The position numbers and the translations under genes are program-made. A stretch of DNA of 64,000 nt from Thermococcaceae archaeon (GTDB lineage: Archaea > Methanobacteriota_B > Thermococci > Thermococcales > Thermococcaceae). Where the stretch lies: contig JASGLT010000008.1 of assembly GCA_030156945.1 (NCBI GenBank), forward strand, positions 1-64,000, in the 5' to 3' direction. Shown piece by piece: positions 28,058 to 46,497 of this stretch (position 1 is the first letter of the stretch; each line of letters starts with the position of its first letter). Below the pieces are notes generated by a model. It ran no database searches. It was not told where the DNA came from and worked only from the letters and a program-made list of their open reading frames with translations.

Positions 28058-29078
28058 GGAGAAGGTCGAGTTCCTGAGGAAGCTCGTTGAGATTTACTCC
28101 CCCACAGGGAGGGAGGAAGAGGCGGTTAAGTTCATCGTCGAGTCCTTTGAAAGCTTTGGGGTTGATGCTTACGTCGATGAAGTGGGAAACGCGATAGCGG
28201 TAAGGGAAGGCAAGGGGCCGAGGATACTACTCGCCGGCCACGTTGACACAGTTCCGGGGGTAATTCCCGTCAGGATAGAGGACGGGGTCCTCTGGGGCAG
28301 GGGGAGCGTCGATGCCAAGGGCCCTCTTGCGACTTTCTTCTTCGCCACGCTGGAGAGCAACGCGAACATAATCTTCGCTGGTCTGGTAGACGAGGAGGGC
28401 TTTTCCAAGGGCGCCAAGAACCTCGACGTTCCCAGACCTGACTACATCATCATAGGCGAGCCGAGCGGCGTCGACGGCGTAACGATAGGCTACAAGGGCA
28501 GTTTAACTGCAAAATTCGTGGAGAGCGTGGAGAAAGTTCACGGGAGTTTAGGGGTCGACGCGGCTGAGAGGTTGATAAACAGGTGGCTCGAGATAAAGTC
28601 CTTCTTTGGAGAGGGCTTCAACGCTTTAAGCGGCAGGATAGTCGAGTTCCACGCCTACGAGAGGGACTTCGACTTCTACGGCGAGATGGTGATAAACCTC
28701 CGCACTCCCCCAGGCTACAATCCGCCCAAGGGTTGGAACATACTCGACTTCGTTCCCGCCTACCAGGTCGACAGGATGAGTCCACTCGTGAGGGCCTTCG
28801 TCAGGGGCATAAGGAGGAACGGCATGAGGCCGAGGCTGAAGAAGAAGACAGGAACGGCCGACATGAACATCCTGGGCCCGAGGTTCGGCGTTGACGCAGT
28901 AGCTTACGGTCCGGGCGATTCCAGGCTGGACCACGCGCCCCACGAGCGCATCAGCCTCAGTGAATACCTACTTGCAATAGAAGTTCTGGTGGACGTCATC
29001 GAGGAACTCAAAGGAGCCGGGGAAAGGGCCGCTGAAGAAAGTGGAGAGATGGAAGCGGGAAAGGCCCTCTCAGGGTAA
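28044..29078 (+). CDS. lysK: LysW-lysine/ornithine hydrolase (ArgE/DapE-like)
   Basis: [35 protein letters not shown] metal-binding region. Confidence 0.92.
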
Positions 29079-29858
29079 AGTTCTCGTTGAGAGGATCCTG
29101 GACTTCTTCGTTGCGGCATCTATGGCCTTCATTATCGCCGTTCTTATCTTGCCCTCTTCGAGCTCGAAGATGCCGTCTATCGTAGTCCCTCCCGGGGTCG
29201 TCACCATGTCCCTTATCTCAGCTGGATGGCCCTCGTAGTTCATCAGGAGCTTTGCTGTACCGAGGAGCGTCTGAAGGGCGGCTATTTTTGCCACTTCCCT
29301 CGGAAGGCCGACCCTTAAACCCCCGTATATCATAGACTCAACGAACACCGAAACGTAGGCCGGCCCAGAACCGCTGAGCCCGGTTATCGCGTCCATGTGC
29401 TCCTCATCGACAAGAAGACACTCGCCGAATGTCCTCAGGAGGGATTCGACCTTCTCCCTCTCTCCTGGCTCGAGATCGGTCGTGGAGTAGCCTGTGAAAG
29501 CCTCGCCAACGAGAATGGCTATGTTGGGCATCGCCCTAACGACCTTTGCCCCCGGGGCGAGCTCCTTTAGGGTCTTTATCGGAACTCCAGCAGCCAAAGA
29601 TACAAGTATCTTGCCGTTAAGTGCCTCTCTTATCTCTCCCAGGACCTTAGCTACCTTGTTGGGCTTCACTGCAAGAAAAACGACCTCAGCCCACTCGGCT
29701 GCCTCCAGGTTGTTCCTGATGACCTTAACCCCGTATTCCCCAAGCCATTTTGCCTTCTCAACGTTCCTCCTCGTGGCTATAACCTCGTGGCCCTTCCCGG
29801 CGAGGGCCTTCGCGACTGCCCCGCCGATCATTCCCGCCCCAATGACCGCTATCCTCAT
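29070..29858 (-). CDS. proC: pyrroline-5-carboxylate reductase
   Basis: MRIAVIGAGMIGGAVAKAL; VVRAMPNIAILVGEAFTGYS; TGLSGSGPAYVSVFVES; 3' end overlaps lysK by 9 nt. Confidence 0.95.
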   Translation of the reverse strand: MRIAVIGAGMIGGAVAKALAGKGHEVIATRRNVEKAKWLGEYGVKVIRNNLEAAEWAEVVFLAVKPNKVAKVLGEIREALNGKILVSLAAGVPIKTLKELAPGAKVVRAMPNIAILVGEAFTGYSTTDLEPGEREKVESLLRTFGECLLVDEEHMDAITGLSGSGPAYVSVFVESMIYGGLRVGLPREVAKIAALQTLLGTAKLLMNYEGHPAEIRDMVTTPGGTTIDGIFELEEGKIRTAIMKAIDAATKKSRILSTRTLP

Positions 29859-29991: not shown

Positions 29992-30011
29992 TGGACAGGC
30001 AAACCTGGCGA
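29992..30011 (+). promoter_or_regulatory. Tar-like box of the aro operon
   Basis: TGGACA-GGCAAACC-TGGCGA; 4 nt (ATAG) before the TATA box. Confidence 0.7.
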
Positions 30012-30015
30012 ATAG

Positions 30016-30023
30016 TTTAAATA
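30016..30023 (+). promoter_or_regulatory. TATA box of the aro operon
   Basis: TTTAAATA; the TTG used by the ORF track (30027) would lie upstream of the predicted TSS. Confidence 0.75.
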
Positions 30024-30047
30024 GGGTTGCTGATTCATCCGTCTCCG

Positions 30048-30419
30048 GTGATCGGTGATGTCCCGCCAATTTACACGGCCTTCAAACCAGGTGATGTCCC
30101 GCCAATGGGTGATGCCCCGCCAATATTAGCAACCCCCGGCGGGGAAGAGATAATCAGGAAGCTCGTTCTGAGGGCTTTGAACGAGAACCAGAGGCTGATA
30201 CTGAGGAGCATAAACGGCAGGCACCGCTCCCTGAATTCCCTCCTTAGGGAGCTCAGCAGAAAGGAAAGAAAAGCCATCTCGACCCTTAAGCTGAACGCCA
30301 GGATTCTGAAGGAGCTCGGCCTTATTGACTACGGTACAAAGGGCGATCCCAGGCCCGTTACTCTTACTGAACACGGTAAGATGATCCTCAGCCTTCTGGA
30401 GGTGGACGGCCATGAGTGA
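30048..30419 (+). CDS. tar: small wHTH regulator, likely Tar (aromatic amino-acid biosynthesis regulator); alternative start ATG 30105
   Basis: First gene of the aro operon; ALNENQRLILRSINGRHRSLNSLLRELSRKERKAISTLKLNARILKELGLIDYG is wHTH-like. Tar in T. kodakarensis is encoded at the head of the aro operon (recalled literature). Confidence 0.75.
   Translation: MIGDVPPIYTAFKPGDVPPMGDAPPILATPGGEEIIRKLVLRALNENQRLILRSINGRHRSLNSLLRELSRKERKAISTLKLNARILKELGLIDYGTKGDPRPVTLTEHGKMILSLLEVDGHE
30054..30124 (+). repeat. three copies of GGTGATG(T/C)CCCGCCAAT on an 18-nt grid
   Basis: Copies at 30054-30070, 30090-30106 and 30108-30124; offsets 36 and 18 nt. A fourth copy lies at 38431-38447. Confidence 0.95.
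30058..30129 (+). other. candidate aro leader peptide MSRQFTRPSNQVMSRQWVMPRQY*
   Basis: First ATG about 12 nt after the predicted TSS, with SD-like GGTG. The repeat units are followed by TTT (Phe), TGG (Trp), and TAT (Tyr) then TAG. Confidence 0.6.
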
Positions 30420-37319: not shown

Positions 37320-38383
37320 GGGGGAAACTGCTGGGCTTTTCAATATTCGGCGAGAGCCACGGAAAAGCTGTTGGAGTCCTTATAGAGGGACTCCCCCCTG
37401 GAATAGAGGTCAGCGTTGAGGAGCTCAAAGGGGAGCTTGAGAGGAGGAAGGGCATAGAGAGGTTCGCAACCAAGAGGAAAGAAACTGACGAGCCAAAGAT
37501 CCTCTCGGGGGTCTTCAGGGGGAGAACAACGGGGACGCCAGTTGTCGTCATCGTGGAAAATAGAGATGTGGATTCCTCGTACTACGAGGAGATAAGGAAC
37601 ACGCCGAGACCGGGGCATGCGGACTATCCAGCGGGGATAAAGTACTTCGGGTATAACGATTATCGCGGGGGCGGTCACTTCTCGGGGAGGCTGACGGTTG
37701 GGGTCGTTATAGCGGGCTACTTCGCCAAGAAGCTCCTGGAGAGGGAAGGAATCAAGGTGAGGGCTTACCTCAAGCGGATAGGGCGCGTGGAGGCCCACGT
37801 TTCTCCCGAGGAGCTGTTGAGCTCTGAAAACCCCTACTGCCCAGACGAGAGGGCCTTTGATGCCATGGTTGAGGAGATGGAAAGGGCCAGAAAGGCCGGC
37901 GATAGTGTTGGAGGTGTTGTTGAGACCGTTGCCTTCAATGTCCCCCCGGGCCTTGGAGGACCCTGGGAGGAGGACATCGAGGCGGATATAGCCTCGGCCC
38001 TCTTCAGGATCCCGGCCGTCAAAGGCGTTGAGTTCGGCCTGGGCTTCGGGTTAGCGGAGCTCAGGGGGAGCCAGGCAAACGACCCCTTCGCCCTGAAGGA
38101 CGGAAAGGTTGTGACCGAGACCAACAATCACGGCGGTGTCCTCGGGGGCATAACCACCGGGATGCCTCTCGTGGTGAGGGCTGCCTTCAAGCCGACCCCA
38201 TCCATATACCTCCCACAGAGAACGGTTGACCTTGAGAGGATGGAGGAAGTCACGCTCAGGCTGAGGGGGCGCTTCGATTCCTGCATAGTCCCAAAGGCCC
38301 TCCCCGTCGTGGAAAGCGCTGTTGCCTTCGTAATAGCAGACCACCTCCTGAGGAGACGGGCCTGGGAGGGGATGGCTAGGTGA
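37316..38383 (+). CDS. aroC: chorismate synthase
   Basis: FSIFGESHGKAVGVLIEGLPPGIE; RPGHADYPAGIKY; GGHFSGRLT. Confidence 0.95.
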   Translation: MRGKLLGFSIFGESHGKAVGVLIEGLPPGIEVSVEELKGELERRKGIERFATKRKETDEPKILSGVFRGRTTGTPVVVIVENRDVDSSYYEEIRNTPRPGHADYPAGIKYFGYNDYRGGGHFSGRLTVGVVIAGYFAKKLLEREGIKVRAYLKRIGRVEAHVSPEELLSSENPYCPDERAFDAMVEEMERARKAGDSVGGVVETVAFNVPPGLGGPWEEDIEADIASALFRIPAVKGVEFGLGFGLAELRGSQANDPFALKDGKVVTETNNHGGVLGGITTGMPLVVRAAFKPTPSIYLPQRTVDLERMEEVTLRLRGRFDSCIVPKALPVVESAVAFVIADHLLRRRAWEGMAR

Positions 38384-38392
38384 ACCTGTCCA
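38373..38392 (+). promoter_or_regulatory. Tar-like box of the tyr-phe operon, overlapping the aroC stop codon
   Basis: TGGCTA-GGTGAACC-TGTCCA; 4 nt (AAAG) before the TATA-like GTTAAATC (38397-38404). Confidence 0.65.
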
Positions 38393-38712
38393 AAAGGTTA
38401 AATCCCGAGGTTCAAGCCCAAAACGGTGACGGTGATGTCCCGCCAATATCGAGTCCTGATCTTGTAGAACTTGCCATTCTGAGGAGAAGGATAGACGAGA
38501 TTGACTGGGAAATTCTCCAGCTTCTCCAGAGGAGGATGGAAGTAGCAAGGGCCATAGGGGAAGCCAAGCTAAAGCTCGGACTGCCAGTTTACGACCCGGA
38601 CAGGGAGAGAGAAGTTCTATCCAGGGCAGGCGAATTTAGGAGGGTTTTCGAAGCCATCCTTGAGGTGAGCAGGGATGTTCAACGTGTACGAGTTCTTCAA
38701 CAGGATAAATGA
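38380..38712 (+). CDS. chorismate mutase (AroQ class)
   Basis: LRRRIDEIDWEILQLLQRRMEVARAIGEAKLKLGLPVYDPDREREVL. The N-terminal 30 residues are leader-encoded; true start uncertain. Confidence 0.85.
   Translation: MNLSKRLNPEVQAQNGDGDVPPISSPDLVELAILRRRIDEIDWEILQLLQRRMEVARAIGEAKLKLGLPVYDPDREREVLSRAGEFRRVFEAILEVSRDVQRVRVLQQDK
38435..38467 (+). other. candidate tyr-phe leader peptide MSRQYRVLIL*
   Basis: Fourth copy of the GGTGATGTCCCGCCAAT cassette (38431-38447), again starting just after the predicted TSS, followed by a Tyr codon. Confidence 0.5.
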
Positions 38713-44851: not shown

Positions 44852-45810
44852 GCTATCTCCTCCAGTTTTTCAAGCATCCCTTGGCCCAGGGCTTCCCTGG
44901 CCATCTCAAGGCCCTCCCTGAAGTCGCCCGCAACCCCTGACGCGTAGAGGGCTGCTGAAGCATTGACGAGGATGAAGTCCCTGTCCTCCCTCCTTCCCGA
45001 ACCCCCGAGAACCGCCTTTATCCTCGCAGCGCTCTCCTCCGGGGAGGAGCACGGCAGGGGCTTCACTGGACTGATCCCGAAGTCCTCAGGCGAGAGCGTG
45101 TACCTCTCGACTCCATTGCCAACCTCCAGGACGAGGGTCTTTCCGTGGGGAGAAACTTCATCCATGCCCGAACCGTGGACAACCAGGGCCCTCTCAACCC
45201 CGAGGAACTGGAGGGCCTCCGCCACTGGTTCCAGAAGCTCTGGGGAGTTGACGCCGACTACCTGGTATGCTGGATCAGCTGGATTTGCAAGCGGTCCGAT
45301 GACGTTGAAGACTGTCTTTATCCCGAGGGCCTTTCTCACGGGCATTATTGGTTTGAGTGCCGGGTGATAGGCGGGGGCGAAGATGAACGTGAAGTTCGTC
45401 CTTTCGACCATCTCCCTGGCCTTCTCCGGGGGAACCCGTATGTTTAAGCCAAGCGCCTCAAGTACGTTGGCTGAGCCGCTCTTCGACGTTATGGAAACGT
45501 TTCCGTGTTTAGCGACCCTTGTGAAGGCCGAGAGTATCAAAGCCGAGGCCGTGCTGACGTTTATAGTCGAGCTCCCGTCTCCGCCCGTTCCGGCTGTGTC
45601 GGCCACCTTCCCAAGGTCGAGCTTGACTGCGCTGTCCCTCATCGCCCTCGCCAGGCCCGCGAGCTCTTCGCCGGTGTAGCCCTTGGTCTGGAGTGCAGCC
45701 AGGTAGGCCCCTATCAGGACCTCTCCGCTCCCCTTCAGCTCGTTGAAGAGCTCGTAGGCCTCCTCAAAGCTTAGGTTCTTTCCCTCGACGATCTTTGCAA
45801 GAAGGCTCAT
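44833..45810 (-). CDS. trpD: anthranilate phosphoribosyltransferase
   Basis: DTAGTGGDGSSTINVSTASALILSAFTRVAKHGN. Confidence 0.96.
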   Translation of the reverse strand: MSLLAKIVEGKNLSFEEAYELFNELKGSGEVLIGAYLAALQTKGYTGEELAGLARAMRDSAVKLDLGKVADTAGTGGDGSSTINVSTASALILSAFTRVAKHGNVSITSKSGSANVLEALGLNIRVPPEKAREMVERTNFTFIFAPAYHPALKPIMPVRKALGIKTVFNVIGPLANPADPAYQVVGVNSPELLEPVAEALQFLGVERALVVHGSGMDEVSPHGKTLVLEVGNGVERYTLSPEDFGISPVKPLPCSSPEESAARIKAVLGGSGRREDRDFILVNASAALYASGVAGDFREGLEMAREALGQGMLEKLEEIACLSKS

Positions 45811-46493
45811 ACTTCCACCTCCACGAGCTTTCTGAGAAACTCCTCTGGGTTTGGTGCCTTCATGAGCGCGGTGCCTATCAGAGCGGCATCCGCATGTCTT
45901 AAAGCCCTCCTAAGATCCTCCGTATTGGCTATGCCGCTCTCGCTGACCTTCAAGTATCTCCTTGGTATGAGCGGCGCCAGCTCTTCCGTTAGGCTCACGT
46001 TGCCGTCGTCGAGCTCGAGCTTCCCTATGTCGCGGTTGTTTATCCCTATCATTGTTGAATCCGTCTGGAGTGCTATCGCCAGCTCCTCCTCGCTGTGCAC
46101 CTCCACGAGGGTGTCCAAGCCGTGCTCCTTCGCGAAGTCCACGAACTCGGGCAGTTCCTCTTTCAGAAGGCGCGTTATCAGGAGAACCGCCGAGGCTTCA
46201 GCTTCAGCAGTCTTTTCGACTTCCCCCTTGCTGGCTATGAAGTCCTTCCTCAAAACTGGCAATTCCGTTTCCCTGCAGAGGGCTTTAAGGAACTCAAAGC
46301 TCCCCCTGAAGTACTTCGGGTCGGTTATGTAAGAGATTCCAACCGCTCCTGCCCTTTCATAAGCCCTTAGAATCTCAAAGGGGTCCCTGCCATTCAGAAG
46401 ATCCCCGTACTTCGGAGAATAGACCTTTAGCTCGGCTATTATGGCGTTCTTCTCGGCTTTTCTAATAGCCCTGCTCAATCCAAAAACCATCAC
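45807..46493 (-). CDS. trpC: indole-3-glycerol phosphate synthase
   Basis: AIIAELKVYSPKYGDL; VLRKDFI; GINNRDIGKLELD. Start GTG 46493 or ATG 46490. Confidence 0.95.
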   Translation of the reverse strand: MMVFGLSRAIRKAEKNAIIAELKVYSPKYGDLLNGRDPFEILRAYERAGAVGISYITDPKYFRGSFEFLKALCRETELPVLRKDFIASKGEVEKTAEAEASAVLLITRLLKEELPEFVDFAKEHGLDTLVEVHSEEELAIALQTDSTMIGINNRDIGKLELDDGNVSLTEELAPLIPRRYLKVSESGIANTEDLRRALRHADAALIGTALMKAPNPEEFLRKLVEVEV

Positions 46494-46497
46494 CCAT
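46462..46497 (-). other. candidate trp leader peptide MGDGFWIEQGY*, overlapping trpC
   Basis: ATG 46497 is the first ATG after the predicted TSS, with SD GGTGAG five nt upstream; codons include Phe-Trp and a Tyr just before the stop. Confidence 0.45.

Follow-up and report, generated by a model that had tools for sequence, protein, structure and literature searches.

In the autoregulatory frameshift of prfB, the gene for release factor 2 (RF2), a slow A-site codon and an upstream Shine-Dalgarno (SD)-like element shift the ribosome into the gene frame, and the start of the gene is thereby the sensor. The leader of the archaeal aro/tar operon resembles prfB in this arrangement, and in its cassettes, too, the sensor codon directly follows the slip codon, CAA; however, prfB shifts by +1 at CUU-UGA with an SD 3 nt upstream and senses RF2, whereas the leader would shift by -1 at C-CAA followed by a sense codon, has a longer SD spacing and would sense aminoacyl-tRNA. 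As in trpL, pheL and hisL, the codons of the leader ORF match the end product of the operon, but no terminator or alternative hairpins were found here, and the leader, out of frame with the gene that it overlaps, would be where translation of that gene begins. T-box riboswitches likewise sense uncharged tRNA ahead of aminoacyl-tRNA synthetase (aaRS) and biosynthesis genes, yet the leader has no known structured RNA (no Rfam match) and would sense by decoding. With dnaX-type sites it shares the -1 direction and an SD-like stimulator about 11 nt upstream of the P-site codon, within the 10-14 nt range, but dnaX is not known as starvation-regulated, and the X-XXY-YYZ heptamer, searched for in the cassettes, was absent from them, the cassette being NNC-CAA-NNN. 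A shift at a codon that lacks its aminoacyl-tRNA is known from the laboratory as hungry-codon frameshifting (Gallant), of which a 2016 review knew no natural trans-frame product made for starvation (PMC5009743). Archaeal -1 recoding has been described in fucA1 of S. solfataricus, the only reported archaeal case according to a 2021 review (PMC8211752), although no sensor role is known for fucA1. As in programmed frameshifting in general, the second ORF overlaps the first in a fixed other frame and lacks a start of its own, save that members with a Trp sensor do have an overlapping ATG.

The regulator Tar of Thermococcus kodakarensis activates the aro, trp and tyr-phe operons, all three of which are induced by omitting any one of Trp, Tyr and Phe; the binding of Tar is unaffected by Trp, Tyr or Phe, and how the absence of any one amino acid is recognized was left as a question by Yamamoto et al. 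2019 (PMC6737238). Erythrose 4-phosphate released Tar in the assay of these authors (PMC6737238) and may be a second input.

The aro, chorismate mutase and trp leaders in the window

The window, that is, the whole stretch of 64,000 nt analysed, carries leaders at the starts of three operons (Table 1). The TATA box, leader ORF, three cassettes and out-of-frame overlap with tar claimed in the first-pass annotation are all borne out and can be read directly in the sequence. Judging from the usual archaeal spacing, the transcription start site (TSS) of the aro operon would lie at about 30045, and a GTG at 30055 is an alternative start of the leader ORF, whose peptide reads MSRQF-TRPSNQV-MSRQW-V-MPRQY-stop. 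The cassettes, GGTGATG(T/C)CCCGCCAAT, are three copies of one repeated unit that begin at 30054, 30090 and 30108, such that the 18-nt grid described earlier holds with one slot empty (spacings of 36 and 18). The tar frame is -1 relative to the leader ORF and open upstream through all three cassettes, and its ATG at 30105-30107 overlaps the TGG sensor codon of cassette 2. A proC-like gene (29070-29858; pyrroline-5-carboxylate reductase, by eye) is divergent from tar and shares the intergenic region with it.

Table 1. Positions of leader, promoter and gene features in the window
Feature	Position	Strand	Remark
Tar-box-like palindrome TGGACA-N8-TGGCGA	29992..30011	+	read against consensus TGGACA-N8-TGTCCA (PMC6737238)
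TATA box TTTAAATA of aro operon	30016..30023	+	read from sequence
Shine-Dalgarno GGTGATC of aro/tar leader ORF	30047..30053	+	cf. T. kodakarensis RBS consensus GGDGRD (PMC4247193)
aro/tar leader ORF MSRQFTRPSNQVMSRQWVMPRQY-stop	30058..30129	+	ATG 30058, TAG 30127-30129
Cassette 1	30054..30072	+	SD-like GGTGAT, slip codon C-CAA 30067-30069, sensor TTT (Phe) 30070-30072
Cassette 2	30090..30108	+	CAA 30103-30105, sensor TGG (Trp) 30106-30108
Cassette 3	30108..30129	+	CAA 30121-30123, sensor TAT (Tyr) 30124-30126, stop TAG
tar (TK0271-type winged-helix activator), annotated-type start	30105..30419	+	length (315 bp) as given for TK0271
Tar-box-like TGGCTA-N8-TGTCCA and TATA-like TTAAAT of tyr-phe operon, at aroC end	38373..38404	+	consensus from PMC6737238
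Leader ORF MSRQYRVLIL-stop before chorismate mutase	38435..38467	+	slip codon CAA 38444-38446, sensor TAT 38447-38449
Chorismate mutase frame, reached by the proposed -1 shift	38434..38712	+	
trp operon leader ORF MGDGFWIEQGY-stop	46462..46497	-	SD-led, with UUU-UGG
trpC (indole-3-glycerol-phosphate synthase)	45807..46493	-	

The 2.08-Mb genome has four matches to the cassette pattern, all on this contig, and the fourth copy stands at the start of chorismate mutase (38431), 8.3 kb downstream of the aro/tar leader. Here the chorismate mutase frame, which likewise differs by one from that of the leader ORF, has no ATG, GTG or TTG from the predicted TSS to the conserved core. In a control scan of the window for an SD with a short ORF overlapping the start of a long ORF out of frame, three of the six places found were the operon starts of aro/tar, tyr-phe and trp. 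At trp, the trpC frame is +1 relative to the leader ORF, and TTT and the T-ending codon preceding it are kept across the trpC starts read. The shift proposed there would be +1 at UUU-UGG, a reading of lower confidence than those for tar and chorismate mutase since trpC has GTG/ATG starts. A prfB-like +1 stimulator at trp (GGTGAT plus 3 nt) was considered and dropped, as the spacing histogram identifies this distance as the normal initiation optimum (SD spacing for long ORFs in the window peaks at 3-5 nt); thus only the leader ORF and the possible +1 shift at UUU-UGG are left for trp.

With codons free, three different aromatic residues at the TNN positions have a probability of about 0.006 (24/4096). 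When synonymous codons for the overlapping Tar-frame peptide were drawn with the usage of this genome, 47% of draws gave all three aromatic codons, and the window alone is therefore weak evidence that these codons were selected; it does not exclude chance or a by-product of overlapping coding and SD repeats, in which N-terminal repeats were amplified and the aromatic codons simply follow the Tar-frame residues. The relatives do exclude it: the arrangement is conserved in four archaeal groups while regulator-frame residues change, His, Thr, Pro, Gly and Ser sensors match neighbouring genes, and CAA is the slip codon throughout although it makes up 9% of the Gln codons in this genome. As such, we regard a by-product as exceedingly improbable, and the decisive evidence is comparative and very strong.

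Frame relation, missing starts and the proposed frameshift

The cassette NNC-CAA-[sensor codon] precedes Tar-family genes in Thermococci, Thermoplasmata, Bathyarchaeota and Micrarchaeota. At 74 of 77 loci, C-CAA lies within a started ORF in the frame to which the regulator is -1, the corresponding counts for the other two frames being 5 and 9. Start codons of the regulator frame were counted between the sixth codon ahead of the slip and the core at the 69 loci whose leader is clean; ATG was absent at 37 of them, and ATG, GTG and TTG were all absent at 25. From this census L186, L250 and L258, where the picking rule chose the wrong ORF, were excluded and their leaders read by eye, and L273, L280 and L282, with degenerate slip codons, failed the rule. 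In six Thermococcaceae genomes (G110, G114, G118, G121, G124 and G125), none of ATG, GTG and TTG precedes the conserved core in the Tar frame, and differences among seven relatives in this start-less stretch number 76, 70 and 116 at codon positions 1, 2 and 3, a third-position excess as expected if the stretch is translated. Several Micrarchaeota have a stop codon directly before the slip codon. Given that the regulator frame is start-less at so many loci, translation must enter from the leader, which thus looks like the regulator's own 5' end. In addition, most cassettes, the internal ones among them, have an SD-like GTGAT at a fixed distance before the slip codon. Between GGTGA and CAA lie 8 nt, which by our own conversion corresponds to about 11 nt in the AGGAGG register. 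Such an element, together with a hungry codon immediately behind the slip codon, is what a slip gated by starvation would require.

Based on these comparisons, the leader is very probably the true 5' end of tar, joined to it by a programmed -1 frameshift that is gated by starvation; we infer that the ribosome slips, that it does so in the -1 direction and that starvation is the trigger. Ribosomes would load at the strong SD and begin the leader ORF (M-x-x-Q). As long as every aminoacyl-tRNA is available, Phe, Trp and Tyr would be read, translation would stop at TAG and little Tar would be made. With one tRNA uncharged, the ribosome would pause, its P site occupied by tRNA-Gln on CAA and its A site empty, be held by the SD-like GGTGAT, slip one base back (C-CAA to CCA-A) and continue in the Tar frame, where no stop intervenes from the first cassette onwards. 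The Tyr cassette would gate chorismate mutase directly, with a predicted trans-frame peptide of MSRQ joined to ISSPDLVELAIL. The direction of this logic would fit, as starvation would yield more activator. Several points count against the frameshift: the re-pairing from C-CAA to CCA is poor, with a mismatch in the middle, the X-XXY-YYZ heptamer is absent, and recombinant Tar made, apparently, from the ATG overlapping TGG is active.

The activity of this recombinant Tar bears on the possibility that no frameshift takes place and that the codon following CCA (AUG with a Trp sensor, AUA or AUU with Tyr and Phe sensors) is the start of the regulator, the leader only competing or stalling. At Trp sensors the regulator-frame ATG overlaps TGG, so that direct initiation is possible there (the annotated TK0271 start), and the 315-bp length of TK0271 fits that ATG. 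However, initiation after CCA cannot be general, since in Micrarchaeota the codon there is ACA, AAC, ACC, AGG or ATC; moreover, the SD spacing would be 10 nt after GGTGA against the peak of 3-5 nt for the long ORFs of the window, and a ribosome stalled on the sensor would cover the start, an effect of the wrong sign if the product is to activate biosynthesis. We therefore hold this explanation to be improbable.

The first-pass annotation had suggested transcription attenuation or plain stalling. In classical attenuation or anti-polarity, the stalled leader ribosome would alter RNA folding or termination in the aro operon, which is in keeping with a leader ORF bearing regulatory codons, as in trpL and pheL, and with the induction of the transcripts by starvation. 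No terminator-like site, Rfam family or unusual fold was detected at the leader (its fold scored no better than those of shuffles, z 0.14), leader and gene overlap instead of following one another, and the 25 loci without start codons would be left unexplained. This part of the claim was thus not upheld, and attenuation seems very improbable.

Sensor codons and gene content in Thermococcaceae and other archaea

Among 94 Thermococcaceae genomes searched for cassettes, the exact and most near-exact copies precede tar or chorismate mutase, and the leader reads M-(S/P/Q)-(R/H/Y/C)-Q-aromatic. The sensor codons of the tar leaders follow the pathways that each genome possesses: a Trp codon is present in 13/13 genomes with tar and the trp pathway versus 3/14 without the pathway (G086, G087 and G091 retain it, a point against the model), a Tyr codon in 19/19 genomes with chorismate mutase versus 3/8 without, and a Phe codon in 3/3 genomes with prephenate dehydratase (PDT) versus 3/24 without, the p values being optimistic and merely indicative because genomes and loci are phylogenetically related. 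The Pyrococcus-like genus g20 alone still splits, with F, W and Y where all pathways are present and Trp only where chorismate mutase is lacking. Chorismate mutase leaders are present where the gene has its own promoter, and their sensor is always Tyr apart from a decayed copy in G015; the other decayed cassettes are the third of G030 (MIPRHY) and the second of G087 and G091. Where the leader starts farther upstream (G042, G045, G015, G084 and G088), the cassette frame is kept.

At the sensor position it is the amino acid that is conserved: Phe is encoded by TTT in some leaders and TTC in others, and Tyr by TAT or by TAC, while the other frame changes. Selection confined to the overlapping GDVPPI frame had been named in the first-pass annotation as an argument against the leader, which proved half right, as the Tar frame is also constrained; this is because it would be translated after the proposed shift. 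The spacer between the F and W cassettes is likewise better preserved in the Tar frame, where 10 substitutions are synonymous and 11 are not, than in the leader frame, where the numbers are 5 and 18.

Two side observations concern individual tar copies. In-frame stops interrupt tar in G094 (L057, L106) and in G121:C1 (L068), yet the leader cassette remains readable (MPHQYW, MPCQW..MPCQY). L046, which we take to be P. abyssi, has a second tar paralogue with its own Trp leader (MMVMSRQWKS-stop).

Scanning GTDB contigs with the Tar core identified relatives in a DHVE2 genome, Thermoplasmata, Bathyarchaeota and Micrarchaeota. The DHVE2 leader reads ...SSQF..SRQW..PNQY-stop, the Thermoplasmata leaders have F and Y as sensors, and the Bathyarchaeota leader has F, encoded as TTC; in a Thermoplasmata genome pheA has its own cassette with a Phe sensor. 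A wider search of Thermoplasmatota returned no genomes beyond those already found. The DHVE2 genome also holds a second tar paralogue (L211) with a Tyr-Tyr...Trp leader.

In Micrarchaeota, 49 Tar-like loci from 37 genomes were recovered with a profile search; 40 regions were fetched and their leaders and downstream genes read, the genes being named by NCBIfam. The sensor after CAA is often non-aromatic here (His, Thr, Pro, Gly or Ser) and in other leaders Trp, and it matches the downstream gene at 18/18 loci that have an amino-acid-specific gene: His with HisS at six loci (including L182) and with HisG at one, Thr with ThrS at two, Pro with ProS at three (one of them also with a proB-like kinase), Gly with GlyS at one, Ser with SerS at one and Trp with a TrpB-type gene at four. 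None of 1,000,000 shuffles reached this agreement, and with LeuS as third gene (L257) and a stand-alone ThrRS editing domain (L258) entered as mismatches it was still reached by 0 of 200,000; taken as six unrelated groups, the match has a chance of 1 in 720. In these archaea, His, Thr, Pro, Gly, Ser or Trp cassettes would gate Tar-like regulators that stand before the matching aaRS or biosynthesis gene.

A constitutive programmed frameshift, in which tar is always made through a -1 shift of constant rate whichever codon follows CAA, would suffice for the fixed -1 relation and the missing starts, which require only a shift; however, it does not predict that codon identity tracks the pathways and the downstream aaRS or biosynthesis gene, and we rate it marginally lower still than attenuation. 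The same tracking supports the claim that the aro operon has a modular leader ORF by which charged tRNA-Phe, -Trp and -Tyr are sensed. We thus consider it highly probable that the leaders form a widespread archaeal sensor class, in which a leader cassette (start, NNC-CAA and sensor codon) responds to a missing charged tRNA with a -1 frameshift and so yields a transcription activator or the enzyme itself, with cassettes swapped or stacked for Phe, Tyr, Trp, His, Thr, Pro, Gly and Ser.

Several further leaders are of interest. In Micrarchaeota, two findings count against the model: genes for a GNAT acetyltransferase and an M20 peptidase follow Tar-like regulators with His cassettes (L251, L257, L268, L275, L277, L281 and L282; Phe in L260), and one Trp leader precedes a nucleoside hydrolase. 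In the same group, the stacked cassettes of L258 (MKSQY-QK-VMNRQH-VMPRQW) form one leader that would sense Tyr, His and Trp together. Relatives in Thermoproteota with Tyr or Phe leaders precede transketolase (aro-type operons), and two Tyr leaders precede an enzyme of the tryptophanase/tyrosine phenol-lyase family. Remote Tar relatives of Thermoproteota (L294-L301), most of them before a sodium/solute-symporter-like gene, have in common a leader-like stretch, AAAGGTGTCTxCCTTTTCAAG(TA), which could represent the same logic with another codon.

Implications for Thermococcus and other archaea

The leader of G011, which we take to be T. kodakarensis strain KOD1, is MSRQFMKSSNQVMSRQWVMPRQY; its Phe cassette is present, and a search of G011 for prephenate dehydratase gave no PF00800 match, which also counts against the model. 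Growth of T. kodakarensis without Phe has been reported despite this, and a non-orthologous enzyme may be involved.

To our knowledge, no leader-ORF sensor of charged tRNA has been reported from archaea, as the first-pass annotation also stated, and our literature searches, with most subscription papers outside reach, likewise found no earlier description of this one. If the proposed mechanism is true, hungry-codon frameshifting would for the first time be seen to serve as a switch in nature, and for many of these regulators and enzymes the annotated start is probably wrong or lacking. Since a single codon would predict what is sensed, specificity could be told from genome sequences and put to the test in T. 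kodakarensis, a tractable organism, and the cassette could find use as a modular synthetic sensor. For Thermococcus, the leader would explain why all aromatic operons are induced by the lack of any one of Trp, Tyr and Phe, and, if true, would answer how the organism senses the lack of any one of these three amino acids.
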